Source of the DNA: an uncultured Pelagibacteraceae bacterium | GTDB taxonomy: Bacteria; Pseudomonadota; Alphaproteobacteria; Pelagibacterales; AG-422-B15 | Assembly: GCA_902622985.1 (NCBI GenBank) | Contig: CACNSH010000001.1 | Coordinates: 128,036 to 192,035, forward strand | DNA length: 64,000 nucleotides | Direction of reading: 5' to 3' | Notes under the pieces: generated by a model | Seen by the model: the letters and a program-made list of their open reading frames with translations, nothing else | What the model was told of the DNA's origin: nothing | The model's database searches: none | In this document: piece after piece, positions 2,736-29,496 of the stretch | How positions within the stretch are numbered: the first letter of the stretch is position 1 | Layout: every line of letters begins with the position of its first letter | Translations under genes and position numbers: made by a program

Positions 2736-3392
2736 TTAATAGCTATATCTAACTGTTTCATATAGCCTATAAATAAGGTCAACAAATACTAAAAATGATA
2801 ATAAAACAAATATTTGATCATTAAAACTAAAAATAGAGAATAAAAATAATAACCACATTTCAAATAAACCAAATGGAGCAAAACCAATTAATAATCCTCT
2901 TTGCATAAAATATTCTTTTAATGATGCTCTTTTTTTTAGTAATTTAATTCTTGGTTCTATATAAAAATCTACTGTTAAAACATAAAATAAAAGTAAAAAG
3001 GCCAAAAACCATAATTCCGGTTTATTAAGAATAATTAGTATCCACAAAGAGGGGTAGAATAACCAATCAATAATTAAGTCTAAATATTTTCCAAATTTGG
3101 ATGATTGAGAGTTAAATCTTGCAAGCGCACCATCAGAATAATCTAGAACAGTTCTAAACCAATATAGAATAAATGAAATGAGAAAGTGATCAAAATAAAA
3201 ATAATATAAACAACAGGATGATACCAGTAAGTTAATAAATGACACATTATTAGGACTAAATTTTATTAAATGGAAAAAATAGGTAAAGTAAATAGCAAAC
3301 GGATGAATTATTAGCTTAAATTCAATGTAGTAAATATCATAGTTTCTAATACATGATAAAATTTTTTGCTTTTTATCACTGAAATCACTCAT
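2736..3392 (-). CDS. CDP-alcohol phosphatidyltransferase family membrane enzyme
   Basis: A 218-residue hydrophobic protein with a perfect CDP-alcohol phosphotransferase signature, DxxDGxxAR(x8)GxxxDxxxD, seen as DYSDGALARFNSQSSKFG then KYLDLIID at residues 84-109. Several membrane helices flank it. The family moves a phospho-alcohol from a CDP donor to an alcohol acceptor at the inner membrane and uses the four aspartates for metal binding. The gene overlaps the FemAB-like gene upstream by 8 bp, so it probably belongs to the glycan operon rather than to general phospholipid synthesis. The acceptor (polyol, inositol, sugar) is unknown. Such an enzyme in a glycan cluster hints at a phosphodiester-linked substituent or lipid anchor. 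Confidence 0.85.
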   Translation of the reverse strand: MSDFSDKKQKILSCIRNYDIYYIEFKLIIHPFAIYFTYFFHLIKFSPNNVSFINLLVSSCCLYYFYFDHFLISFILYWFRTVLDYSDGALARFNSQSSKFGKYLDLIIDWLFYPSLWILIILNKPELWFLAFLLLFYVLTVDFYIEPRIKLLKKRASLKEYFMQRGLLIGFAPFGLFEMWLLFLFSIFSFNDQIFVLLSFLVFVDLIYRLYETVRYSY

Positions 3393-6555: not shown

Positions 6556-7317
6556 TTATAGTTTGACCTTTTTTCGTTTAACTTTTTTATTAATATTTCT
6601 AATACTTTTATTTGTATTAAGAAACTTAAGTATATCATCCAATGAGAATGGTGATTTATTGGAATGTAATTTTTTTACAATTTTTGAGATGAGTTTATAG
6701 TCAGATATTTCGTCTAGAGTAAGTCCTAGGTCAGGCAGGTGGTGCTCAGAAGGAGCCATAATATTGATCGTCTTATATTTTTTATAGTTTTTTTTGTAAT
6801 AAAGTGTGACATGCTCTAAATCATTTTTATTTTGAGTTAGCAAACTTACTTCTTTTAATGATTTAGTTGAAAATATTGCTATATCCATACCATCAGGATA
6901 TGTTCTTATTGTTGAGTTACTTACATAATCAGCATTATTAAAAATATAAGTATTTAATGTTTGAGACACTAGTCTTGGGTCAATCAATGGACAATCTCCC
7001 GTAATTTGAACTATATTTTTAACGTTAAATTTTATTGCAGTTTTCAATACTCTTTCAAGCACATTGTCCTCACTGCCCCTAAAATATTTTATTTTATTTT
7101 TCTTTAGATAATTCACTAAAATGTCATCATTTGTATTAGTAGTAGTAGCCACAATAATGTCCTCTACGTTTTTTACACAACTAATTCTATTTATTAAATA
7201 ATGAATTGAGGGAATATTATTTAATGGCAACATAACTTTTCCAGGCAGTCTGCTTGAACTCATTCTTGCCTCAATAATTATTGAAAAATTATTTTTATTT
7301 ACCTTTTTCTGTTTCAT
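6556..7317 (-). CDS. SpsF/PseF-type cytidylyltransferase for a nonulosonic acid
   Basis: A 253-residue nucleotidyltransferase with the SpsF/PseF signature IIEARMSSSRLPGKVM close to the N-terminus (nucleotide binding) and QITGDCPLID in the middle, where the metal-binding Asp sits. Enzymes of this family activate a nonulosonic acid as its CMP derivative. It overlaps the end of the PseI-type synthase by 23 bp, so the two consecutive steps are probably translationally coupled. The C-terminus is unusually lysine-rich (KKVKRKKVKL). It could also be the SpsF domain of a spore-coat-like pathway; either way CMP-sugar formation is the best call. Confidence 0.8.
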   Translation of the reverse strand: MKQKKVNKNNFSIIIEARMSSSRLPGKVMLPLNNIPSIHYLINRISCVKNVEDIIVATTTNTNDDILVNYLKKNKIKYFRGSEDNVLERVLKTAIKFNVKNIVQITGDCPLIDPRLVSQTLNTYIFNNADYVSNSTIRTYPDGMDIAIFSTKSLKEVSLLTQNKNDLEHVTLYYKKNYKKYKTINIMAPSEHHLPDLGLTLDEISDYKLISKIVKKLHSNKSPFSLDDILKFLNTNKSIRNINKKVKRKKVKL

Positions 7318-8374
7318 TTTTTTTTAAATAACTTAATTTAAATGGAGTATTCTGTTTTATTTTAGTATTTACTTTTTTTCCTAATAAGTAATTAAAATGC
7401 TTTGGATGTATACCATTTGAAGGCCTCACGACTTTGATATTGTTTTTGTTAATAATATCCCCCTTTACTAAATTTTTAACAACATAAATTGATCTTCTAA
7501 AATGGAGAGACTTTCTTTCTGATTGACTTGGACCAATTTTTTTCTTACCTAATGCACGCCATGCATTGGTACACTCTTCAACCATCGATTTTAGATCTTT
7601 AACTTCAAGAGAAAATTTGCTATCCACTGCACCATCATTTTTATTGAGGGTAATATGTTTCTCAATGACACTAGCACCAAGAGTAACTGCTGTAATTGGA
7701 GCTGCTATTCCCTCTGTATGATCTGACAGGCCGATTTGGCAATTAAACTTTTTTTTCATAAAAGGTATAGACAGTAAATTACTATCATCAATAGAAGCTG
7801 GGTATTCACTAGTACATTTTAAAAGAATTATTTTCTTTGCTCCCTCTGATTTTGCTGCATTAATTGCATCATTTATCTCTTTTTCTTCTGCCATGCCTGT
7901 TGAAATTATTATTGGCTTGCCAGTAGCAGCAACTTTTTTAATGAGTGGTATATGATTGATTTCAAAAGATGCTATTTTATAAGCAGGGACTTTTAAATTT
8001 TCAAGAAAGTCGACAGCTGTTTCGTCAAATGGTGAACTAAAACAAATTAAATTATTTTCCTTGGCACGCTCAAATATTTCTGCATGCCATTTCCATGGTG
8101 TGTGTGCTTCATTATATAGATCATATAAATTGCGTTTGTACCAGATACTATTTTTGTCTTGAATAATAAACTCTTTATTTTTCGAATTTACCGTTATTGT
8201 GTCAGCGGTATAAGTTTGTAATTTAATCGCATTTGCACCTGATTTTGCTACCTCATCAACTATTTTTAGGGCCCTTTTAAGTGAACCTCGATGATTGCCA
8301 GACATTTCGGCTATAATAAAAGGTGGATAGCCATTGCCGACAAAATCATTTCCAATTTTAAATATTTTTTCCAT
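7295..8374 (-). CDS. pseI: Pseudaminic acid synthase-type nonulosonate synthase
   Basis: A 359-residue NeuB-family enzyme that condenses phosphoenolpyruvate with a six-carbon amino sugar to make a nine-carbon nonulosonic acid. The N-terminal TIM barrel contains FIIAEMSGNHRGSL, AIKLQTYTADT and SDHTEGIAAP; the C-terminal antifreeze-like SAF domain (about residues 295-350) contains VRPSNGIHPKH. The opening and the 'LWxKRxLYxLYxxAxTPWxWH' type region match PseI (pseudaminic) better than NeuB or LegI. It overlaps the HAD gene upstream by 17 bp and the cytidylyltransferase downstream by 23 bp. Substrate stereochemistry is inferred from family resemblance and from PseB/PseC in the same operon. Confidence 0.88.
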   Translation of the reverse strand: MEKIFKIGNDFVGNGYPPFIIAEMSGNHRGSLKRALKIVDEVAKSGANAIKLQTYTADTITVNSKNKEFIIQDKNSIWYKRNLYDLYNEAHTPWKWHAEIFERAKENNLICFSSPFDETAVDFLENLKVPAYKIASFEINHIPLIKKVAATGKPIIISTGMAEEKEINDAINAAKSEGAKKIILLKCTSEYPASIDDSNLLSIPFMKKKFNCQIGLSDHTEGIAAPITAVTLGASVIEKHITLNKNDGAVDSKFSLEVKDLKSMVEECTNAWRALGKKKIGPSQSERKSLHFRRSIYVVKNLVKGDIINKNNIKVVRPSNGIHPKHFNYLLGKKVNTKIKQNTPFKLSYLKKNETEKGK

Positions 8375-9035
8375 AATGATTTTTATTTATTATATTTATA
8401 ATTTCTGACAAGTTATTGATTTTAAATCTTGCATCAAACTTGCTTTCAGCTTTTTCAAATTTATATGGTCCTCTCATTATCCTTACTGTTTGAACGCCTT
8501 TTTTATTTAAATTAACAAAATCTTTTTTTGGGTTATCACCGATATACATCATTTCATTCCAAGCTACACCTTCAGCTTCTTTAATTTTTTTAAAACAATA
8601 AACTGACGGTTTAGCATATTTACAACCATAGTTGTGAGTGATAAAAGATTTCTTAATTTTGTTGTTTAATCTAAGTGCAAGTAGCTTTCTTTTCTGAACA
8701 ATTTTGTTTCCATCCGTTAAAATATATATATTTTTTTTTAATTTAAATATTATTTTTTTTGCATCTCCATATAATTTAATATTGGGTTTGTGTAACCTGT
8801 AAATCAAAATAGTTTTTTTAATGAGGGATTTACTGTAGAATTTATTTTCCGTTAAAAACTTATCAAATACTAATCCTCTTCCATCTTTCTTCACTATTTC
8901 GTTAAGTCTTTTTTCAATTTTTCTCGCATTAAGATTTAGTAGAGAAGATAAATATTTTGATACAGCTTTAAAACCACCTATTTGAAAATCTTCTTCTCTA
9001 TAAAGAGTGTCATCTAAATCAAAGATTATTATCAT
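8358..9035 (-). CDS. HAD-superfamily hydrolase
   Basis: A 225-residue haloacid-dehalogenase-type phosphatase. Motif I is IIFDLDDTLYRE at the N-terminus (nucleophile Asp plus the general acid two residues on), and motif IV is YIGDNPKKDF. It starts directly next to the epimerase-ATP-grasp gene (no gap) and overlaps pseI. The standard pseudaminic route has no dedicated phosphatase, so it may remove a phosphate from a side-chain or variant intermediate, or serve an unrelated step. The substrate is unknown. Confidence 0.8.
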   Translation of the reverse strand: MIIIFDLDDTLYREEDFQIGGFKAVSKYLSSLLNLNARKIEKRLNEIVKKDGRGLVFDKFLTENKFYSKSLIKKTILIYRLHKPNIKLYGDAKKIIFKLKKNIYILTDGNKIVQKRKLLALRLNNKIKKSFITHNYGCKYAKPSVYCFKKIKEAEGVAWNEMMYIGDNPKKDFVNLNKKGVQTVRIMRGPYKFEKAESKFDARFKINNLSEIINIINKNHYGKNI

Positions 9036-10928
9036 CTAAATTAAAATATCTTTTTGAATACGAACTTGTTTCATTTTATTTTTTATAGGATTAAACTTTA
9101 TAAGATTATTATTAGGAAATAAAAACTCTGAAATAATCCAATAAAATACATCAAGACCTGCAGGTATAGATGCTGTTGAAGCTCCACCAAATCTTGCATT
9201 ACACTCTATAATAGATACTTTATTTTTAGAAACTATTGCTTGAACCACTATCGGTCCTCTAAACTGCAATTTACTGAGAAACTTCTTTATTTTCTTATCA
9301 ACCAAGTCATTATTATAACTAGATGTAACCTTGGACTCACCATGCTCAATGATTTCTCTCTTTCGCGAGTGAAATCCAATAAGTTTATATTTATTGTTAT
9401 ACCAAGCATCTATGCTAATTTCTTGACCCTTTATATATGGCTGAAATATCGGGCACTTTAAGTTTTGGCTGTGACTAATTACATCTTTTTTCTCAAGATT
9501 TATTCCAAGATTATTGGAGGATGAGCCGTACCTTTCTTTAACAACATAATTAATCTTTTCATTCAATTTCTCAACTTCTGTGAATGTTTTAATCACAGAT
9601 ATATTCATACCATGAAAAAATTTATAAAAATTTAATTTATCATTGCATACTTCAATTGTTTTTAGTGGCGAAACTATTACCTTAATATTATTTTGATCAA
9701 ATATTTTTATATTCTTTGACCAAAAATATAATTCTTCATCTCTTGTAGGAATTATTATTTTAATTTTTCTTTTTTTACATCCATTTAAAATTTTTTCTAA
9801 ATTCTTTTGATTTGTTGGAGGCATTTTCCAAAAATAATTACTAACATATTTTGAAATTGAATTGATATTACTATCGCCTGGCATAATATTAATCTTATTT
9901 TCAAATCTACTTGCAGCTCTCTGACAAGCATCGATTAATGGAATTTTTTTTGATGCACTCGTGATTAGAATATTGAATGATAACAATTTATCTTTATATT
10001 TTGTCTTTCGTTTTTCATATTCTATAATTTCTGGTATTGCATCTTCTAGTTTATACTTAGGTTTCCAGTTTAATTTATTATTAAATAATTCCATATTTGC
10101 TGTTGAAGACTCGTAAAATATGTTTGATTTAACTTCTTTAATTCTTAACTTAGTAAAATGAGTTTTCAAAATTTTTATAACGTCTGATATAGGTCGAGAA
10201 ATACCTGTACCTAAATTTACTGGACCAATAATATTATTATCAATTAGTTTTGAAATACCGTGCGCAGTGTCCTTTGAATAAATGAAATCAAATCTACCAT
10301 TTTTACCGTATAATTTAATCTCTTGATTATTAATCAGTGATCTTATCCAACGAGATATTATGTCTCTAGAATTTTTTCCATAACCTCTAAATATTCTTGC
10401 ATAAACAGAAGTGAAATCTGAATTTTTAAAATTATTTAAAAAATTCAGTTCATTTTCGTGAGACAGTTTTGCCATGCCAGTAAGGTTACGAGGTTTCAAG
10501 CTATCTGTTTCTTTAAGGCTATAATTTCTGTTAATAAATTCCTTTGATAAATATAAATCTGGATCATAGACGAGATAGCTTGAAGCAAATATTACTCTTT
10601 TAAGTGATTTAATATCTTTCATAGTAGACATTAATCTGTGACTCAATTGAATATTGTGTTGAAAGTTTTCATCCCAAAAGGTGTAATTCTCATCAGATCT
10701 CTCAAAAGTTGCAGCTAAGTGGATAAATACATCAGGTTTAAAGTTTTTTAGAATCTTGCTATCAATTCCATTTAAATCACCATGGTAATATTCAATTTTA
10801 TTTAAAAAATTATCTGGGATTGGTTTTAAATCACCAACAAAAATCTGATATTTTTTTTTCAAAAGAATTTTTACAAGTTCTTGCCCAATTACCCCAGATC
10901 CACCACTAATAAAAACTTTTTTAGTCAT
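9036..10928 (-). CDS. Fusion: NAD-dependent sugar epimerase/dehydratase + ATP-grasp ligase
   Basis: A 630-residue two-domain protein. Residues about 1-305 are an extended SDR: FISGGSGVIGQE binds NAD, and a DFIYSKD segment is typical of sugar epimerases. Residues about 315-630 form an ATP-grasp ligase of the carbamoyl-phosphate-synthase/PylC type, opening with LITSASKKIPLIDAC. Visible ATP-grasp elements are VVKERYGSSSNN (ATP lysine and glycine loop), PYIKGQEISIDAW and the metal-binding IIECNARFGG. ATP-grasp enzymes join a carboxylate to an amine through an acyl-phosphate. A single protein that remodels a sugar and forms an amide fits an N-acylated amino sugar. It overlaps the GNAT gene by 4 bp. 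Confidence 0.85.
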   Translation of the reverse strand: MTKKVFISGGSGVIGQELVKILLKKKYQIFVGDLKPIPDNFLNKIEYYHGDLNGIDSKILKNFKPDVFIHLAATFERSDENYTFWDENFQHNIQLSHRLMSTMKDIKSLKRVIFASSYLVYDPDLYLSKEFINRNYSLKETDSLKPRNLTGMAKLSHENELNFLNNFKNSDFTSVYARIFRGYGKNSRDIISRWIRSLINNQEIKLYGKNGRFDFIYSKDTAHGISKLIDNNIIGPVNLGTGISRPISDVIKILKTHFTKLRIKEVKSNIFYESSTANMELFNNKLNWKPKYKLEDAIPEIIEYEKRKTKYKDKLLSFNILITSASKKIPLIDACQRAASRFENKINIMPGDSNINSISKYVSNYFWKMPPTNQKNLEKILNGCKKRKIKIIIPTRDEELYFWSKNIKIFDQNNIKVIVSPLKTIEVCNDKLNFYKFFHGMNISVIKTFTEVEKLNEKINYVVKERYGSSSNNLGINLEKKDVISHSQNLKCPIFQPYIKGQEISIDAWYNNKYKLIGFHSRKREIIEHGESKVTSSYNNDLVDKKIKKFLSKLQFRGPIVVQAIVSKNKVSIIECNARFGGASTASIPAGLDVFYWIISEFLFPNNNLIKFNPIKNKMKQVRIQKDILI

Positions 10929-11485
10929 TGCTTTAGTAAACCATGCATATAAGAGTCAGAGAATCTATTATTTTGTAGTACATGTTTTTTTAAAACCCCT
11001 TCTAGTTTGAATCCATTTTCTTCTAATATTCCGATATGATAATCACGGTTTACATAGGTCTCAGTAAATATTTTCATGAATTTAAGTTCTTTAAATACTA
11101 TAATTTTTATTAAATTTAAAAACTCAGTAAAATAAACTTTATATAATTTCTTCTTTTGTAAGATTTTATTATCTAGTAAAAAAGATAATTCAACTCTTTT
11201 GTTTTGCCATGAAATATTTGTCAGTCCTCCATATCCTACTATTTGGCTCTTATTTTTTATACTGAACAGTATTTGAATTGGGGATTTTTTTGATAACTGA
11301 GGCCATACTTGTTTCAAATAATATTCCCTTTGTTGTTTACTTGAGATATTTTTTGTTTGTCTGAGAAAGTTTTTTTGTGAGTTTCTCCAAACTCTAATTT
11401 TTTCTATGTCATCTTGACTTACAGGTTGAATACAAATATTTTTTTCTTTATATTTTATTTTATTTAAACATTTATATTTTAACAT
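10925..11485 (-). CDS. GNAT acetyltransferase, PseH-like
   Basis: A 186-residue GNAT protein. The N-terminal segment ICIQPVSQDDIEKIRVWRNS is the PseH/RimJ-like opening, QIVGYGGLTNI corresponds to strand 4, and the end (EENGFKLEGVLKKHVL) is the usual C-terminal pattern. In the pseudaminic pathway PseH acetylates the C4 amine made by PseC from acetyl-CoA. Its place two genes after an aminotransferase and next to the epimerase-ATP-grasp gene (4 bp overlap) supports acylation of an amino sugar. Assignment to PseH itself, rather than another sugar N-acetyltransferase, is probable, not certain. Confidence 0.7.
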   Translation of the reverse strand: MLKYKCLNKIKYKEKNICIQPVSQDDIEKIRVWRNSQKNFLRQTKNISSKQQREYYLKQVWPQLSKKSPIQILFSIKNKSQIVGYGGLTNISWQNKRVELSFLLDNKILQKKKLYKVYFTEFLNLIKIIVFKELKFMKIFTETYVNRDYHIGILEENGFKLEGVLKKHVLQNNRFSDSYMHGLLKQ

Positions 11486-11497
11486 TATTAAAACAAT

Positions 11498-12808
11498 TTA
11501 ATTAATACGTTTAAACCCAACTTGGCAAACAGGGCCTTCTAGAAGATCATTAATATCTTTTCCATTTTCACAGTCTCTAATTTTAGTAAAGACTCCACTT
11601 AGTTCTTCAAGATAAAAATCAATTAGATTATCATCGTGCGCGATTGACAAATAAACACTATTTGAAGCAAGAATATTTTTTTTTAGTAATTCTTGAGTAA
11701 TAAATGTTTTATATTGAAATTTTGATTCACTTCTAATATTAAACATTGGCAATGCATCTATTCCACTTATCTCAATATTTAATGAGAAATTATTCGCAAG
11801 TTCTTGCCAGCATTTTTTAATATATTTTCCCTTATTTGTAATGATTTTCCATGACTCTGTTTTCTCCATTATTTCTAAAGTCTTTAAAGCAGCTGTTGAG
11901 CCCGCTCTCTCTGACCAAAAAGTACTACTAATAAAACTTGATTGCGCATTCTGCATTATTTCTTCCTTACCAACTACCGCTGTAACTGCGTAACCATTTC
12001 CTAATGCTTTGCCAAACATGCTCATGTCTGGATTAATATTATATTTTTTAGATATTCCTCCAAATGTCTCTCTAAAGCCACTAGTACATTCGTCAAAAAT
12101 TAGCACAATATTTTTCTTCTTGGTTATCTCTCTTACTTTATCTAAGAAACCCTCTTCGGGCTGAATATTTCTTACAACCTCCATTTTTACAGTACCAATA
12201 TCCTTACTATTAATAATTTCTTCAAGTTGATTGAAATTGTTGTATTCAAAAGGAAATACAGTGTTTGTTAAGTTTTTAGGAACACCATTAATATCTAGTC
12301 CATCAAGTAAGTGATTGTTTAGTTCATCTTTACTTTGAAGGTTCGCAGATAAGTACCAATCATGCCAACCATGATATCCACAAATTGCAACATTATCTTT
12401 TCCAGAAGCTGCTCTAGCTATCCTTACAGCAATTGCATTAGCTTCACCTCCAGACCTTGCAAATCTAACCATTTCACCCCAAGGACTGCAAATTTCAATT
12501 AATTTCTCTGCTAGCTCAACTTCTTCACTGCAATTGAGAGTGGACATGTTTCCCTTTGATATATTTTCAATCACAGATTTGTCGACCTCATCATTGCTAT
12601 AACCTAATATGTTCGTACCAACACCCATTAAAGACATATCTATGAATTTTTCATTGTCTAAACTCCATATGTAACACCCTTTGGCTTTGCTATAGTAAGC
12701 GGGCCATTTATCTGGCAAGAACATTTCGGGTCTTTTCGATAAAATCATATTTCCTCCAGGTATAACACCCTTTGCTCTTTTCCATACCTTTTGCCCTTTA
12801 TTGCTCAT
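11498..12808 (-). CDS. Class III aminotransferase, glutamate-1-semialdehyde aminomutase-like
   Basis: A 436-residue fold type I PLP enzyme resembling glutamate-1-semialdehyde 2,1-aminomutase (GGNMILSKRPEMFLPDKWP, then YIWSLDNEKFIDMS). FDECTSGFR carries the PLP-binding Asp and MFGKALGNGYAV the Schiff-base lysine. A housekeeping HemL role is unlikely because it lies inside the nonulosonate operon, 4 bp from the aldo/keto reductase. GSA-like aminotransferases recur in sugar clusters next to aldo/keto reductases and PseI-type synthases, where their exact reaction is not settled to my knowledge. It may provide an amino group on the sugar or the amine/acid joined by the ATP-grasp protein. Confidence 0.8.
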   Translation of the reverse strand: MSNKGQKVWKRAKGVIPGGNMILSKRPEMFLPDKWPAYYSKAKGCYIWSLDNEKFIDMSLMGVGTNILGYSNDEVDKSVIENISKGNMSTLNCSEEVELAEKLIEICSPWGEMVRFARSGGEANAIAVRIARAASGKDNVAICGYHGWHDWYLSANLQSKDELNNHLLDGLDINGVPKNLTNTVFPFEYNNFNQLEEIINSKDIGTVKMEVVRNIQPEEGFLDKVREITKKKNIVLIFDECTSGFRETFGGISKKYNINPDMSMFGKALGNGYAVTAVVGKEEIMQNAQSSFISSTFWSERAGSTAALKTLEIMEKTESWKIITNKGKYIKKCWQELANNFSLNIEISGIDALPMFNIRSESKFQYKTFITQELLKKNILASNSVYLSIAHDDNLIDFYLEELSGVFTKIRDCENGKDINDLLEGPVCQVGFKRIN

Positions 12809-12812
12809 AAAT

Positions 12813-13685
12813 TTATAATCTATCCCATTTACTTGGATTTAGAAGAAGTTCATCATTTGTTTTAAGATCACCCGGTAGTTCATTTTCATCTTTACTTATC
12901 AAGCCCAACACCTGCTCAAGTTCTTTATCACTTTGAAAACCAATTATAACCTTATCAATATTTTTTTGGGAAAAAACATGATTTATTGCATTTTTTATCA
13001 TTTTTGATTGATTAAAATTATTATATTTATTCCACTTATTAATTAAATTGATCCATTTATTAAATTTAACTGGCACGGACTCAGATTTCATTAATAATAG
13101 GCCTTGTAAGAAAATTGATCTTGCATGAATTTCTTTTCCTTTAGATTTCAATTCTTCAAGTTTCCCAGTCTCGTGCATTCTTCGATCAAACACATTTATC
13201 GGACATTGTATAACTTCGAAATCATATATATTTTTTAAGGTATCTATTTGTTTTGGATTATAAATAGAAATACCTATTTTTTTAAAAATACCATTGTTTT
13301 TTAAATAATCTAATTTTTTAATTATTTCTTCACCTATTTTATTTTTTAATTGATCAGGGTTATGTATTAAAACTGTATTTATATTATTAACTTTCAAATC
13401 AATTTTTGACTTATTAATTAACTTTTCAATTGTACTTGAAATATCTTCAATTTTGTTTTGTAATTCAGGTATCTTAGTTATAATCTCAAAATTCTTAACG
13501 CCAATTTTACCAAGAATCTGGTGACAATTTTTATATCCAATAGCTGTATCTATAAAATTAATATCTAGTTTGTTTGCTAATCTAATAATTTTTGATGCCA
13601 TACTAGATTTAACTTTACCAGATGTATTAGAAATACCGTAATTAGATGAGAATTGCGCAGTTCCAATTACAAGTTTGCTAATCAT
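12813..13685 (-). CDS. Aldo/keto reductase
   Basis: A 290-residue aldo/keto reductase. The TIM-barrel opening LVIGTAQFSSNYGI and the FIDTAIGYKN segment (catalytic Asp and Tyr) are clear, followed by VLIHNPDQL and IQCPINVFDRR. The family reduces carbonyls with NADPH. It sits 3-4 bp from both neighbours, PseC and the class III aminotransferase, so it is very likely part of the same multi-enzyme pathway. A keto-sugar or aldehyde intermediate made by the neighbours is the natural substrate (inference). Confidence 0.85.
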   Translation of the reverse strand: MISKLVIGTAQFSSNYGISNTSGKVKSSMASKIIRLANKLDINFIDTAIGYKNCHQILGKIGVKNFEIITKIPELQNKIEDISSTIEKLINKSKIDLKVNNINTVLIHNPDQLKNKIGEEIIKKLDYLKNNGIFKKIGISIYNPKQIDTLKNIYDFEVIQCPINVFDRRMHETGKLEELKSKGKEIHARSIFLQGLLLMKSESVPVKFNKWINLINKWNKYNNFNQSKMIKNAINHVFSQKNIDKVIIGFQSDKELEQVLGLISKDENELPGDLKTNDELLLNPSKWDRL

Positions 13686-13688
13686 TAA

Positions 13689-14840
13689 TTATAATATAGC
13701 TAAGATTTTACTAACAATTTTTTCTTGCTCATTGTCAGAGAGTTCATAGTGAATTGGTATACTTAAGGCTTCTGAGCTATACTTTTCTGCATTAGGGAAA
13801 TCTCCTTCTTTAAATCCTAAAGATCTATAGTAAGGATGCAGATGAACAGGCAAATAGTGCAAGTTAACTCCGACTCCATTTTTTCTTAAATAATTAAATA
13901 TTTTTTTATAAGATTTTGGTGAATAGTCAGCCAGTCTTACTACGTATAGATGAAATGAACTTTTTGCTTTCTTTTCCACCTCAGGAATTCTTATCGGTAG
14001 AGAACTTAACAAGTTATTATATTTTTTAGCTATTTTCTTTCTTTTACTCAAAAATTTATTCAGTTTATTCATTTGTGACAAACCTAAAGCTGCCTGTATG
14101 TCTGTCATTCTGTAATTAAACCCTAAAAGTTGTTGTTCGTAATACCATGCCTCACGGTTTTTAACTTTAAACAGCTTATTATTTCGCGTAATTCCGCTAT
14201 TCCTTAACATTTCAACTTTTGAAGCAACTCTCTTATCGTTTGTCAAAAGCATACCACCTTCTCCAGTAGTAATCATTTTTACTGGATGAAAACTAAATAT
14301 TGTAATGTCAGACCATTTACAACTTCCAACTTTTTCGTTTTTATATTTTGCTCCTAAACTATGGGATGCATCCTCAATAATTTTAAATTTATATTTTTTT
14401 GACAATTTCCAAATCTCATCTTGTTTAGTTGGCTGACCAGCAAAATGGACAGGAATCAAAATTTTAGGAAGTTTATTTTTTTTTTCTGCGTATTCTAATT
14501 TCCGAGAGAGGCTCTCTATACAGATATTATATGTTTTGATATTTATATCTACAAAATCAACTTTAGCTCCACAATATAGACCACAATTAGCTGATGCTAC
14601 GAATGTATTAGGTACTGTCCAAATAATATCTCCCTTTTTTAAGTCCAGTGCCAGACATGCTAAATGAAGTGCGCTTGTAGCACTATTTACAGCAAAAGAA
14701 TACTTTGAGCCACATCGTCTAGCGACTTTATTTTCAAATTTTGGGACATATGATCCTTGTGTTATTAATGGAGATTTAAGAACTTTTACAACGCTATCTA
14801 TATCCTTATCATCAATAAATTGCTTACTGTAAGGTATCAT
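13689..14840 (-). CDS. pseC: PseC: UDP-4-keto-6-deoxy-altrosamine aminotransferase
   Basis: A 383-residue DegT-family PLP aminotransferase. The N-terminus MIPYSKQFIDDKDIDSV and SPLITQG match PseC; the catalytic lysine lies in SFHPVKMITTGEGG, and EDASHSLGA binds the cofactor. PseC converts the 4-keto product of PseB to the 4-amino sugar using glutamate. It follows pseB by 11 bp and precedes the aldo/keto reductase by 3 bp. Order and sequence both support the second step of pseudaminic-type synthesis. Confidence 0.88.
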   Translation of the reverse strand: MIPYSKQFIDDKDIDSVVKVLKSPLITQGSYVPKFENKVARRCGSKYSFAVNSATSALHLACLALDLKKGDIIWTVPNTFVASANCGLYCGAKVDFVDINIKTYNICIESLSRKLEYAEKKNKLPKILIPVHFAGQPTKQDEIWKLSKKYKFKIIEDASHSLGAKYKNEKVGSCKWSDITIFSFHPVKMITTGEGGMLLTNDKRVASKVEMLRNSGITRNNKLFKVKNREAWYYEQQLLGFNYRMTDIQAALGLSQMNKLNKFLSKRKKIAKKYNNLLSSLPIRIPEVEKKAKSSFHLYVVRLADYSPKSYKKIFNYLRKNGVGVNLHYLPVHLHPYYRSLGFKEGDFPNAEKYSSEALSIPIHYELSDNEQEKIVSKILAIL

Positions 14841-14851
14841 TTTTATCTAGT

Positions 14852-15856
14852 CTATACTTCTTCTTCTAAGTTTATCTTTTTGATTTCATCGATACTTAAG
14901 AAATATTTGTTATCTCGAGAATTATAAGAAAATCCCTGGGACATCAGTTTTCCTTCAGAATTATCTTTTATATTCGTAAGATAATCGATGTCACTATCGG
15001 TAAATTTTATTGCAGGCTTAATTAAAAAATAATTTTCAAACTCTATCGTAAGATGTGAGTCATCTTCAGGGCACATAACCTCGTGGATTTTTTCACCAGG
15101 CCTTATACCAATAACTTCAAAGTTAGCATCAGGGTTAATTGCTTTTGCAATATCTGAAATTAGTACAGAAGGCAATTTGGGAACAAATATTTCTCCACCT
15201 TGCATGTAGCTCAGACAACTGATAACAAAATCTACGCCCTGTTGTAAGGTAATTAAAAATCTTGTCATATTAGGATCAGTTATTGGAAAGGTTTTAGTAT
15301 TATTAAGATGAAGCTTTTTAAATAGAGGTATCACAGAACCACGAGATCCAACCACATTTCCATATCTAACAACGGAAAATCTGGTGTGACTATCTCCAAC
15401 TATGTTATTCGCAGCTACAAATAACTTATCGGAAGCCAACTTGGTTGCGCCATATAAATTAATAGGGTTTGCGGCCTTATCTGTCGATAATGCAATTACT
15501 TTTTCTACATTGTTTTTTATAGCAGCATGAATTACATTTTCAGCACCATGAATATTTGTTTTAATACACTCCATCGGATTATATTCTGACGCAGGCACTT
15601 GTTTTAAAGCTGCACAGTGAACAACAATATCTATTCCTCGCATTGCCATCGCAAGTCTCTCTTTGTCTCGGACATCCCCTATAAAAAATCTTATTGCTTC
15701 ACTATTAATTTCACTAGACATTTCATATTGTTTGTACTCATCTCGAGAGTAAATAACTAACTTATTAGGTTTATGAGATTGTAAAATAGTACTAACAAAT
15801 CTTCTACCGAAAGATCCCGTTCCACCTGTAACTAAAATATTTTTATTCTTAAACAT
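14852..15856 (-). CDS. pseB: PseB: UDP-N-acetylglucosamine 4,6-dehydratase (inverting)
   Basis: A 334-residue extended SDR of the FlaA1/PseB type. The NADP loop is LVTGGTGSFGRRF. The ALSTDKAANPINLYGATK stretch carries the catalytic Asp-Lys pair and the YxxxK motif of the inverting dehydratases. It removes water from UDP-GlcNAc with C5 inversion, the committed step to pseudaminic-type nonulosonic acids. It is the first biosynthetic gene after the ABC exporter on the minus strand (35 bp gap). Usual length for PseB is about 330-345 residues. Confidence 0.9.
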   Translation of the reverse strand: MFKNKNILVTGGTGSFGRRFVSTILQSHKPNKLVIYSRDEYKQYEMSSEINSEAIRFFIGDVRDKERLAMAMRGIDIVVHCAALKQVPASEYNPMECIKTNIHGAENVIHAAIKNNVEKVIALSTDKAANPINLYGATKLASDKLFVAANNIVGDSHTRFSVVRYGNVVGSRGSVIPLFKKLHLNNTKTFPITDPNMTRFLITLQQGVDFVISCLSYMQGGEIFVPKLPSVLISDIAKAINPDANFEVIGIRPGEKIHEVMCPEDDSHLTIEFENYFLIKPAIKFTDSDIDYLTNIKDNSEGKLMSQGFSYNSRDNKYFLSIDEIKKINLEEEV

Positions 15857-17796: not shown

Positions 17797-19695
17797 ATGT
17801 TTCATTTAGAATTAAATCAAAACTATTTAAATTTAAATTTAGACAGCAATTTTGACAATAGTGCTAGAAAAAAAATATCTACAATCATTAATAGTCAAGA
17901 AATCCACTTAATTGGCAATATTTTTGAGAAAGATATTGAATCAAAACTCAGACGGATCTTCATACATAAAGAAGATATCGTAGAGGTTTTGCATGAAGTA
18001 TTTACTACAATCTATGGAAGGTACACATTAGTGGTAAGGAATAATACAAAAACACTTATTGCCTCAAGTTACGATATGCCCACACTTTATGTTTATGACT
18101 CTAATTCAAGTTCGGAATTAGTTATTTCAGACATTCACCCAAAATTTTCAAATAAAAACATAGATTGTGATATGTTATATGGAAGGTTACATAATGGCTC
18201 AAATTCTATTTGCCCCATAAGTCTTGATGTAATTTCCACTATTATACCAGGTATGTGGATGGAAATAGATAACAATATTAAATCAGGTTTAAAAATTAAT
18301 GAAGGATGGTCTTTACCAATAAAACATTTATCTAGCCGCTCTGACCACGAGGACATTGCAAATGAATTAGCTGTCGAAATGGGGAACGTATTAAAAAAAT
18401 TTTCTTCTAATACTGATTATGAAGCTCATGTAAAAATTTCAGGAGGGATAGACTCAGCGCTAATAGCTGCGGCTGCAAAATCTAATAATATAGATGTAAA
18501 ATATACAAATCATTTTCATCATTACTTAAATAATGACAGTTATCATGCATATGACATATCTAGAAAACTTGGAATTAAAGTCAATATACTGCCTTACCAA
18601 ATAACTCATCATTCCTCCGTATATTACGATAATTCAGATTGGGAAGAATACATTAAGGAAATAGTTATTCCATTAGCAAAAAAAAATATATTTACATCTC
18701 CTAGTCCTGGTGGCATGAGTCTCACTTTGCCATTTATCAGACAAAACGTATTTGCTTTTGAAGGCAATACATATCCAGTCAATCTTTGTGTGCAACATTG
18801 CAATGTATACCCTCAATTAAACCTTATTAAAGAATTTTATTTAAAAATTAAACAGAGGAAAAGAAGAAATCAATATTCTCACAATAAATCCTCGCAATTA
18901 TTGCGCTACAAAACTAAATCGATAGCATGGTTAAACGATAAAATACATCCTTATTATAACTATGCTTTTTCAATGATTTTTGATAAGAAAAATCTCTCTA
19001 CTGATCTAGAAAAATGTTTTGAAAAAAAAAATAAGCTTTTACATCCATACTATAAAAAATATTTAATAATTATCTCAAATAAAATTAGAAAGGATAAAAC
19101 CTTTGCACGTAAACTACTTGAGCCAGATGCAAATACGATGCTCAAATTAATCAAGTTGATAGCTTTTATAGACGGACCAGCAAAGGGATCGGGAGCGGTT
19201 ATTAAGAATTGCAATGGTTTTGAGACTTTCAATATTGGATTAGCAAGCCAGATTACATTTTTATTGCTGTCAGTTAAATTTGATGAACTTTTAATCCACA
19301 ATTCTAAATGGCATATCTTTAGAGCTTTTCAAATATTAACAAATTTATCATTTAAAAAAATTTACAGAAAATGTCTTTGGACGCATTTAGCTGATCATTT
19401 ATTAGCCAATATAAAGGAGACGCTCTCAAAATTTCACATAATAAGAGAGAGATATGAGAAAAACCTCTCGCATCATAATGAATTATTAAAAAACGAGACA
19501 AACTTAGAATTTTATTTCAAATATCTTAATATAAGAAATTCAAAATTACTTAAAATCTTTGAAGGAACAAAATATTATAAAAATATAAGAGCTATTTATG
19601 AAGGTTTTGATAAAGATAAATTGTTTTTATACAGGAATATTGATTATGGTATTGCTTGTAGTTTAGTAGATGCAGAAATTTTTTTGGAGAACTAA
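17797..19695 (+). CDS. Asparagine-synthetase-like amidotransferase lacking the glutaminase Cys
   Basis: A 632-residue protein with the PP-loop ATP pyrophosphatase motif SGGIDS at residues 215-220 and an N-terminal domain that looks like a decayed Ntn glutaminase fold (RYTLVVRNN.. then IASSYD). Real asparagine synthetase needs Cys at position 2; here the sequence opens MFHLELN, so glutamine hydrolysis is unlikely. Such enzymes (like beta-lactam synthetase and lasso-peptide cyclases) adenylate a carboxylate and couple it to another amine. It is convergent with the PLP enzyme at 19,692-21,092 (4 bp overlap) and divergent from the ABC exporter. The substrate is unknown; the family call rests mainly on the PP-loop. 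Confidence 0.7.
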   Translation: MFHLELNQNYLNLNLDSNFDNSARKKISTIINSQEIHLIGNIFEKDIESKLRRIFIHKEDIVEVLHEVFTTIYGRYTLVVRNNTKTLIASSYDMPTLYVYDSNSSSELVISDIHPKFSNKNIDCDMLYGRLHNGSNSICPISLDVISTIIPGMWMEIDNNIKSGLKINEGWSLPIKHLSSRSDHEDIANELAVEMGNVLKKFSSNTDYEAHVKISGGIDSALIAAAAKSNNIDVKYTNHFHHYLNNDSYHAYDISRKLGIKVNILPYQITHHSSVYYDNSDWEEYIKEIVIPLAKKNIFTSPSPGGMSLTLPFIRQNVFAFEGNTYPVNLCVQHCNVYPQLNLIKEFYLKIKQRKRRNQYSHNKSSQLLRYKTKSIAWLNDKIHPYYNYAFSMIFDKKNLSTDLEKCFEKKNKLLHPYYKKYLIIISNKIRKDKTFARKLLEPDANTMLKLIKLIAFIDGPAKGSGAVIKNCNGFETFNIGLASQITFLLLSVKFDELLIHNSKWHIFRAFQILTNLSFKKIYRKCLWTHLADHLLANIKETLSKFHIIRERYEKNLSHHNELLKNETNLEFYFKYLNIRNSKLLKIFEGTKYYKNIRAIYEGFDKDKLFLYRNIDYGIACSLVDAEIFLEN

Positions 19696-21092
19696 CTCAT
19701 AATTTTATTTTCAACAAAATCGAGCAATTTTGATAGCTCAATTTGAAAGTATTCATAATCATATTTATTTTTGAATATTGAAATTATATGTGATGATGAA
19801 ATTGATATCCTTAAATTACCTACATTTTTATCATTTATTTTTACTTTCATTGGCTGAGATAATAATTGCACTTTATTGTTGTAATTTTTTATACAATTAT
19901 AAATCTTTCTTGACTCTAAAAGTGACAAATAATTATTATTTTTTTTTAAATAAAACAAAAAAATCGTTAAATTGTCCTCTATACGTTCTCCTCTAAAATT
20001 TTTAAGTTTTTGATTTTTACATAATTCTAGAGTTTTATGGCTTTTAATTGATTTTTTTATAATATTTTGCAAATTATTTATTATTAGAATCTTATTTTTC
20101 TTTGGGATATTACTAAAATGCTTCATTTCATTAATTGCAAATTTCCATCTAAATAATAATCCATATGACATTTTTGGTGATTTAATTAGTTCTACATCGT
20201 TAAATATTTTTTTTAAATCTGAATTTTTTTGAAGAGCACCTAAACGGTTATTTGTTAAATACGCTGAGCAAAATGGTGGGGCAGAAAAAAACTTTGATCC
20301 AGTCACTATAACGTCATAATTATTTTCTATAAAAGAAGTTAAAGTTTTAAAATCACATCGCATTTGACAAGCATCAACAACAATTTTGAGGCCTTTAAAC
20401 TCTTTTTTCATTTGATTAATCGTCTCTATTGAAGGAAATATTTTGTGTGATTTAGATACATAAACCAGATGTAAAATTGACTTATCATATTTTGTAAAAT
20501 TTTTATTCAAGAGAAATTTAATTTTACTAGATAATATTTTATGATTATCTTTATCCTTATTGTTAGAGTTTATTGGTAAAAACTCAGTTTTAATATTTTT
20601 TGACTTAAATTCATTTATATAATCATTCTTAGATTGGAATTTTCCATAGGGTGCCTCATATGAGAATATTTTTCCACGAGAGGTATGCCTGATGGATGTT
20701 CCAATTTCATTTATTCCTATAATTATATTATAAATATTTTTCTCATTACCCAATAAAGGAAGGTACTCTGAGTCAGTTCCAGAGGGGGATAGATAAATAT
20801 ATTTGACTTTATTAGAAAATATTTCTTTTAATTCTTTTTTTATTTTTAATTGCAATGAATAAAAAAATGAATGCTTATATAATTCTTTTTTAATTTTTTT
20901 ATAATAATTATAAATATTGCTATAGGAATAAAGAGATGAATGATTAGCTGTAGCACTTGAAAACTCAATTAACTTTGCAATGCTATGTTTAACTCCATAT
21001 ATGTTTATGTCCTTCTCAATTGAATTTCGGAAATCATTATCTAAGCCAATTATTTCATTAAAAGTTTTTTTGCTTTTGATTTCTTTCTTCAT
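19692..21092 (-). CDS. Fold type I PLP-dependent enzyme, unknown function
   Basis: A 466-residue protein with the class V/fold type I logic: SPSGTDSEYL (about 102-111, phosphate-binding loop), IVVDACQMR (Asp240, PLP pyridine nitrogen) and VIVTGSKFFSAPPF (Lys267, Schiff base). I do not recognise a named family. The aspartate and lysine spacing supports an aminotransferase, lyase or desulfurase-like chemistry. It ends convergently on the asparagine-synthetase-like gene with a 4 bp overlap. It starts 66 bp from tRNA-fMet and transcribes in the same direction as the rRNA operon, so it might be reached by read-through. Confidence 0.65.
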   Translation of the reverse strand: MKKEIKSKKTFNEIIGLDNDFRNSIEKDINIYGVKHSIAKLIEFSSATANHSSLYSYSNIYNYYKKIKKELYKHSFFYSLQLKIKKELKEIFSNKVKYIYLSPSGTDSEYLPLLGNEKNIYNIIIGINEIGTSIRHTSRGKIFSYEAPYGKFQSKNDYINEFKSKNIKTEFLPINSNNKDKDNHKILSSKIKFLLNKNFTKYDKSILHLVYVSKSHKIFPSIETINQMKKEFKGLKIVVDACQMRCDFKTLTSFIENNYDVIVTGSKFFSAPPFCSAYLTNNRLGALQKNSDLKKIFNDVELIKSPKMSYGLLFRWKFAINEMKHFSNIPKKNKILIINNLQNIIKKSIKSHKTLELCKNQKLKNFRGERIEDNLTIFLFYLKKNNNYLSLLESRKIYNCIKNYNNKVQLLSQPMKVKINDKNVGNLRISISSSHIISIFKNKYDYEYFQIELSKLLDFVENKIMS

Positions 21093-24631: not shown

Positions 24632-24750
24632 GACCTGGCAATGTCCTACTCTCCCATGCCTTAAGACAAAGTACCATCGGCGCTGGAGCCCTTAACGTTC
24701 GAGTTCGAAATGGGATCGAGTGTAACCTCTCCGCTAAAACCACCAGGTCA
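24632..24750 (-). rRNA. rrf: 5S ribosomal RNA
   Basis: About 118-120 nt on the minus strand. The ends GACCTGG and CCAGGTC pair as helix I, and the conserved loop sequences (CGATCCCATTTCGAACTCG, GAGAGTAGGACATTGCCAGG) are plain. It follows 23S after an 80-nt spacer. Ends may shift by a few bases. Confidence 0.93.
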
Positions 24751-24829
24751 ACAAAACGTGAAATCAATACTAATTAAATTTCTTATTATTCTATCTAGTT
24801 GTCGCTTGTTTAATACTAGTTTGTTCCTA

Positions 24830-24839
24830 GTACATAGAA

Positions 24840-24846
<7 letters not shown>
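24830..24846 (-). other. 3' half of 23S processing stem
   Basis: This stretch (plus-strand GTACATAGAAAATCAAG) is complementary to CTTGATTATTCTATGTAC at 27,567-27,584 with one bulge, forming the helix that brings 23S ends together for RNase III-type processing. A further match (TCAATACTAATTAAA near 24,765 against TTTAATTTAGTATTGA near 27,637) extends the stem. Confidence 0.7.
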
Positions 24847-27566
<2,720 letters not shown>

Positions 27567-27573
<7 letters not shown>

Positions 27574-27584
27574 ATTCTATGTAC
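27567..27584 (-). other. 5' half of 23S processing stem
   Basis: This stretch pairs with 24,830-24,846 (see that entry); together they form a helix of about 17 pairs closing the 23S precursor. Mature 23S ends should lie within or next to this helix. Confidence 0.7.
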
Positions 27585-27691
27585 AAAAAACAAACTTATA
27601 GTTTTTTGTGACACTTAGATTTGAATTCTCAATAAAATTTTTAATTTAGTATTGATGTCACTTCACGATGTAAATGGAAAAGCTTAAAACT

Positions 27692-27767
27692 TGGTGGAGC
27701 TGACCGGGATCGAACCGGTGACCCCCTGCTTGCAAAGCAGGTGCTCTCCCAGCTGAGCTACAGCCCC
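27692..27767 (-). tRNA. tRNA-Ala (TGC)
   Basis: A 76-nt cloverleaf in the 16S-23S spacer, minus strand, anticodon TGC, with encoded CCA. The acceptor stem GGGGCTG pairs with CAGCTCC allowing a G-U, and the T-loop reads GGTTCGATCC. This is the standard spacer tRNA nearest 23S. Confidence 0.95.
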
Positions 27768-27783
27768 AAGAGATACCACGTCA

Positions 27784-27861
<78 letters not shown>

Positions 27862-27890
27862 AAACGTAAGGCTTTATAGTTTTAAACAAT

Positions 27891-27912
27891 GAAAGAGAAG
27901 CGAGGACGGTAA
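27891..27912 (-). other. 3' half of 16S processing stem
   Basis: The plus-strand sequence GAAAGAGAAGCGAGGACGGTAA is nearly the reverse complement of TTACCGCCCACGTTTCTCTTTC at 29,555-29,576. The two would form a 22-pair helix around the 16S precursor, the normal RNase III processing stem. Confidence 0.7.
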
Positions 27913-27976
27913 GCCGCATATAATTACTAAGTTAAATATTTTTTAAATTCAAATGAACTCAAAAAATTACTCTTAG

Positions 27977-29462
<1,486 letters not shown>

Positions 29463-29496
29463 TTTAAAAATGACGCACACAAACTTATTGGCGGAG

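Follow-up and report, generated by a model that had tools for sequence, protein, structure and literature searches.

The DNA analysed here, a stretch of 64,000 nucleotides (hereafter the window), encodes a 630-residue protein that fuses an extended SDR without the usual catalytic tyrosine to a PylC/CarB-like ATP-grasp domain (9036-10928, minus strand). Based on its residues, on its homologues and on the genes that travel with it, there is an even chance that the protein is a bifunctional enzyme whose role is to decorate a pseudaminic-acid-type sugar, or a precursor of one, by a ligase step and an NAD-dependent SDR step.

The fusion gene and its homologues

The listing of open reading frames gives the fusion as 630 codons on the minus strand, with an ATG start and zero internal stops; the plus-strand translation of the same interval contains many stops. 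The gene overlaps the upstream GNAT gene by 4 bases and is abutted by the downstream HAD gene, spaced as in an operon. Three Pfam domains pass their gathering scores (Epimerase, residues 5-231, 7e-23; PylC-like_N, 320-418; ATP-grasp_3, 428-582), and an AlphaFold model (mean pLDDT 88.9, pTM 0.58; input alignment of 19 rows, with two plasmid rows left out) has two confident domains, with confidence below 50 only at residues 312-314 and at the C-terminus. The extended-SDR domain comprises residues 1-311 (9996-10928, minus strand; Pfam Epimerase, AlphaFold model and Foldseek matches to SDRs) and keeps the NAD motif SGGSGVIG and D33, the interdomain linker comprises residues 312-316 (9981-9995, minus strand; pLDDT <50 at 312-314), and the ATP-grasp domain comprises residues 317-625 (9054-9980, minus strand; Pfam, NCBIfam PRK12767, and 2pn1 by sequence and by fold). 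Foldseek matched the SDR half of the model to 2pk3, TunA, MoeE5 and UDP-sugar epimerases and the ATP-grasp half to 2pn1, and none of the best 50 matches was long enough to span both domains. The initial annotation had read a single intact frame joining an SDR to an ATP-grasp domain, and the domain search and structure prediction that it proposed agree with this reading, as do the uninterrupted frame and the full-length homologues (L026, L028 and L029).

These homologues were recovered by whole-genome search from two alphaproteobacteria other than the window's genome (G728, 44% identity over residues 3-630 with no stop; G454, 40% identity) and by contig scan from a member of another phylum, Chitinophaga sp. 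Ak27 (43% identity). The fusion is rare among the genomes sampled. At thresholds of 1e-15 to 1e-20, three of the 385 from the class carry it, including the window's own, and no further fusions were found in 397 sampled from the order and 399 from the phylum, a count that is a lower bound as the contig scan used one sequence and not a profile. A sequencing artefact at the join, which had been named as a way in which the reading could fail, is ruled out by the three independent full-length homologues, none of which has a stop or shift at the junction. Pairwise identity among the four fusions is 46-55% in the SDR and 34-43% in the ATP-grasp half, with 101 and 72 invariant alignment columns, respectively, and because it is the better-conserved half, the SDR is under selection. 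A viral origin was considered and set aside, with no relatives in two scans of viral contigs and a single weak match, to the SDR, in phage records. The plasmid search returned half-length matches only.

Catalytic residues of the two halves

Both sets of catalytic motifs had been described as intact at the outset, which holds for the ATP-grasp half; the YxxxK motif of the SDR reads T150-G-M-A-K154, with the catalytic Tyr replaced. When aligned to the profile of E. coli GalE, T150 falls on Y149, K154 on K153 and S117 on S124, placing the Thr150 codon (10479-10481, minus strand) where the catalytic Tyr would be encoded. Across the four fusions this position is Thr in three, including the window's, and Cys in one homologue, and the NAD motif SGGxGxIG, D33, S117 and K154 are invariant. 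Amongst 32 distinct SDRs from the fetched loci, a set gathered by similarity and not a random sample, 27 have Tyr at this position, the exceptions being the four fusions and one other protein. An unfused extended SDR without the catalytic Tyr was also observed at L018:1459-2466, with FPGWAK replacing YxxxK.

The fusions share an additional invariant residue, Tyr118, adjoining the catalytic Ser117. In NDP-sugar 4,6-dehydratases (LegB, RmlB, PseB) the catalytic Ser/Thr is followed by Asp-Glu or Asp-Lys, and at this site the fusion SDR has Tyr-Leu (S117-Y118-L119). The SDR scores 53.1 bits against the GalE model TIGR01179 (cutoff 262.3) and 37.8 bits against the LegB model (cutoff 475). Judged by sequence, a GalE-type epimerase is unlikely because the YxxxK Tyr is replaced by Thr or Cys, and the fusion SDR is probably not an ordinary sugar epimerase, the function that it had initially been assigned and with which the absent Tyr, the low GalE score and the Tyr-Leu at the dehydratase motif disagree.

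Loss of the Tyr alone does not imply loss of activity, because WbpM and PglF (PMC8987622) and CapE (PMC3699295) are active with Met at the same position. It is conceivable, if doubtful, that the SDR half is non-enzymatic and binds NAD and sugar nucleotides so as to hold or sense the substrate of the ATP-grasp ligase; the catalytic Tyr is absent from all four fusions and sister loci (see below) work without an SDR, but neither Ser117, Lys154 nor the NAD motif varies, conservation is higher in this half than in its partner and SDRs with Met for Tyr retain activity.

The ATP-grasp half looks active. Aligned to the profile of E. coli CarB, Q563, E575 and N577 fall on Q829, E841 and N843, which are metal ligands in that enzyme; this stretch (Q563...E575-C-N577; 9198-9242, minus strand) is invariant in the fusions, as are K464, E503 and R579. 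A lack of catalytic residues in this half on alignment, also named as a way in which the reading could fail, was not observed. Two Pfam models clear their gathering scores in this half (PylC-like_N, 39.5 bits, cutoff 27; ATP-grasp, 42.9 bits, cutoff 23.2), the best score to the NCBIfam PRK12767 equivalog is 160 bits against a cutoff of 390, and the protein has no Pfam match to PF13535 (ATP-grasp_4).

A conserved module beside pseudaminic acid genes

The fusion lies within a run of minus-strand genes that includes three enzymes of the pseudaminic acid (Pse) pathway identified above model cutoffs: PseI pseudaminic acid synthase (7295-8374; TIGR03586, 496 bits, cutoff 340), PseC aminotransferase (13689-14840; TIGR03588, 518 bits, cutoff 423.5) and PseB 4,6-dehydratase (14852-15856; TIGR03589, 512 bits, cutoff 407.75). 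Between PseI and the fusion, directly after the ATP-grasp half, is a HAD-family phosphatase (8358-9035; Pfam, catalytic motifs and synteny), and in 11 such HAD proteins the DxDxT, TDG, Lys and second Asp motifs are invariant. The remaining members are a cytidylyltransferase (CTP_transf_3 by Pfam, PseF model not matched; 6556-7317) that is a candidate CMP-sugar synthetase, a GNAT acyltransferase that is weakly PseH-like (10925-11485; Pfam and synteny; PseH 32 bits, cutoff 93.1), a class III, GSA-aminomutase-like aminotransferase (11498-12808; profile matches, with a Chitinophaga counterpart at 26% identity) and an aldo/keto reductase (12813-13685; Pfam, with counterparts in L026 and L029). The neighbours named in the initial annotation, PseC, the class III aminotransferase and the GNAT acyltransferase, are thus all present. 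PseH was not found above cutoff in ten genomes, including the window's (87% complete), nor PseG in the window's genome or the other alphaproteobacteria, and because of these absences the middle of the Pse pathway is not the textbook version. PseG is present in both gammaproteobacteria. The HAD protein was not adopted as a stand-in for PseG, as two genomes carry both.

Six more genomes (G530, G630, G1114, G1151, G1157 and G1210) possess a close homologue of the ATP-grasp half, 37-39% identical to the window's, without the SDR. Together with the four fusions, these give ten loci spanning the alpha- and gammaproteobacteria and the Bacteroidota, in all of which a HAD gene directly follows the ATP-grasp, and in eight of which a GNAT gene precedes the ATP-grasp or fusion gene; the order GNAT, fusion, HAD is kept in all four fusions. 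PseI occurs inside the sampled stretch of nine loci (it is absent from that of G454), and PseB and PseC are present in the sampled stretches of six. Several of the loci contain methyltransferases. In the gammaproteobacterial loci (G1114 and G1210) a LicD-type gene takes the place of the GNAT; both carry PseF, PseG and PseI with the ATP-grasp-HAD pair (L032:9294-10897 and L049:9927-11554), contain no GNAT or SDR, and lie near flagellin-like genes. A more distant ATP-grasp-HAD pair is found on a Priestia plasmid beside PseB/PseC-like genes, with no PseI within the stretch read.

In a tree of the ATP-grasp sequences the fused and SDR-less forms are interleaved, with G728 placed within an SDR-less clade (support 96/95), and the fusions are not supported as one clade. 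No related SDR was detected elsewhere in the SDR-less genomes (E 1e-8). Of the fusion and the split pair that were suggested for a search next to pseI in other genomes, the fusion was recovered, along with an SDR-less version, and a split pair is ruled out in the SDR-less genomes. Given the interleaved tree and the genomes without a related SDR, the SDR is thus detachable and has been lost or gained repeatedly. Three consecutive genes in a genome of the same order (L033:9667-12632) encode a LegB-like SDR with an intact Tyr, an ATP-grasp and a NeuB-family synthase; at 25-27% identity this unfused trio is a distant analogue and was rejected as a counterpart.

That the module acts on some other sugar or cofactor produced by this region, its adjacency to PseI being mere co-location, is improbable: PylC/CarB-like ATP-grasps have diverse substrates, the stretch read around the distant Priestia pair lacks PseI and the window holds a second aminotransferase-Gfo/Idh set, but PseI recurs in nine of ten loci across alpha- and gammaproteobacteria and Bacteroidota, and even the Priestia pair adjoins PseB/PseC-like genes.

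The surface-sugar cluster is close to a complete rRNA operon (16S-23S-5S, including two tRNA genes; window 24633-29465) in a 1.3-Mb genome. In SAR11 a cell-surface hypervariable region lies between the 23S and 5S genes (PMC2217521), a setting that is similar but not identical, as the window's cluster is near the operon and not in the 23S-5S interior. Several other genes in the window were noted. A CDP-alcohol phosphatidyltransferase family protein within the cluster (2736-3392, minus strand) could attach a phospho-alcohol group. Two minus-strand ORFs without a Pfam match (997-1461 and 1451-1912) overlap by 11 bases and look like halves of one glycosyltransferase-like gene, possibly a frameshift or a coupled pair. 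Two further proteins also lack a Pfam match, one of 632 residues (17797-19695, plus strand) with ISGGIDSAL, which resembles an asparagine-synthase PP-loop, and one of 466 residues (19692-21092, minus strand) that looks PLP-enzyme-like.

Proposed function and comparison with known systems

In the proposed decoration of a pseudaminic-acid-type sugar, the ATP-grasp half would convert a small carboxylic acid (amino or hydroxy acid, perhaps carrying a phosphate) to its acyl phosphate and then link it to a sugar amino group, an amide being the likeliest linkage, with the adjacent HAD removing phosphate from the donor or the product. The N-acylation step may be left free for the ATP-grasp because the ten genomes lack a canonical PseH and the gammaproteobacterial loci lack a GNAT. 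Glycerate or phosphoglycerate as donor is a guess held with low confidence, prompted by the di-O-methylglyceroyl group on C. jejuni Pse and by the methyltransferases in several module loci. The fused SDR would act on the same substrate in a redox or redox-assisted reaction that depends on NAD and dispenses with the usual Tyr; Tyr118, beside Ser117, is a candidate acid/base. Fusion would let the product of the SDR be channelled to the ligase. Because sister loci have no SDR, its step would be an optional addition to the ligase module, one that may differ between carriers in view of the interleaved phylogeny. Two points stand against the decoration reading: in the known active SDRs without the Tyr, which are from another branch of the family, the residue is Met instead of Thr or Cys, and the GNAT, where present, could be the N-acylation enzyme itself.

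A more far-reaching version, which we hold to be rather unlikely, is a new branch of nonulosonic acid synthesis in which the Tyr-less SDR-ATP-grasp, the HAD and the unusual GNAT substitute for the PseH/PseG steps and install a non-acetyl acyl group, with Tyr118 replacing the YxxxK Tyr. It is quite improbable that the SDR works as a standard NDP-sugar epimerase and supplies the ligase with an amino sugar that it has epimerised; its fold and best sequence relatives are those of UDP-sugar epimerases, reductases and dehydratases, and the pathway uses UDP-amino sugars, but the change of Tyr to Thr or Cys and a GalE score of 53 bits against 262 argue against it.

Several pseudaminic and legionaminic acid decorations have genes that are unassigned or only partly assigned, and the portable GNAT-[SDR]-ATP-grasp-HAD module, present near PseI in distant bacteria, offers a defined set of enzymes. 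The SDR half, Tyr-less yet better conserved, also lends itself to a direct test of SDR action without the catalytic Tyr.

ATP-grasp genes have been linked to flagellar sugar decoration in two systems: deletion of sfmE in Shewanella shifts the flagellin mass (PMC3765264), and CDR20291_0245 of C. difficile is needed for a terminal peptidylamido sugar (PMC5207246). Like the enzyme of the module described here, both are ATP-grasp ligases, and each has been implicated genetically in the decoration of a flagellar sugar; both are unfused and differ in family (CDR20291_0245 is assigned to PF13535 and SfmE to an ATP-grasp_4 domain), and the window protein matches neither. Decorated nonulosonic acids, including C. 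jejuni Pse with di-O-methylglyceroyl or N-acetylglutamine and Leg5GluNMe7Ac in C. botulinum (PMC3068675, PMC5207245), are the kind of product that the module could make. In the open-licence literature, the Shewanella paper was the only one found to join an ATP-grasp to nonulosonic or pseudaminic acid, and no description of a fused SDR-ATP-grasp was found.

The PRK12767/PylC-like "carbamoyl phosphate synthase-like" ATP-grasps, with 2pn1 as a relative of solved structure, share with the window protein the order PylC-like_N then ATP-grasp_3 and the Q-E-N ligands, and are common in surface-sugar loci, as here, but the window protein is below every PRK12767 equivalog cutoff and is fused to an SDR. 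Likewise, MoeE5, the TM0509 UDP-glucose 4-epimerase, TunA and GalE share the fold, the NAD motif and the catalytic Ser and Lys with the fusion SDR, which differs in lacking the catalytic Tyr, in the invariant Tyr beside the Ser and in its attached ATP-grasp. WbpM, PglF, CapE and SpsM similarly have the YxxxK Tyr replaced and the Lys kept (PMC8987622, PMC3699295, PMC7439481), with Met and the dehydratase Asp-Lys pair where the fusion SDR has Thr or Cys and Tyr-Leu. The putative sugar-decorating ATP-grasp ligase is of a known kind, in this case fused to an SDR without the catalytic Tyr.
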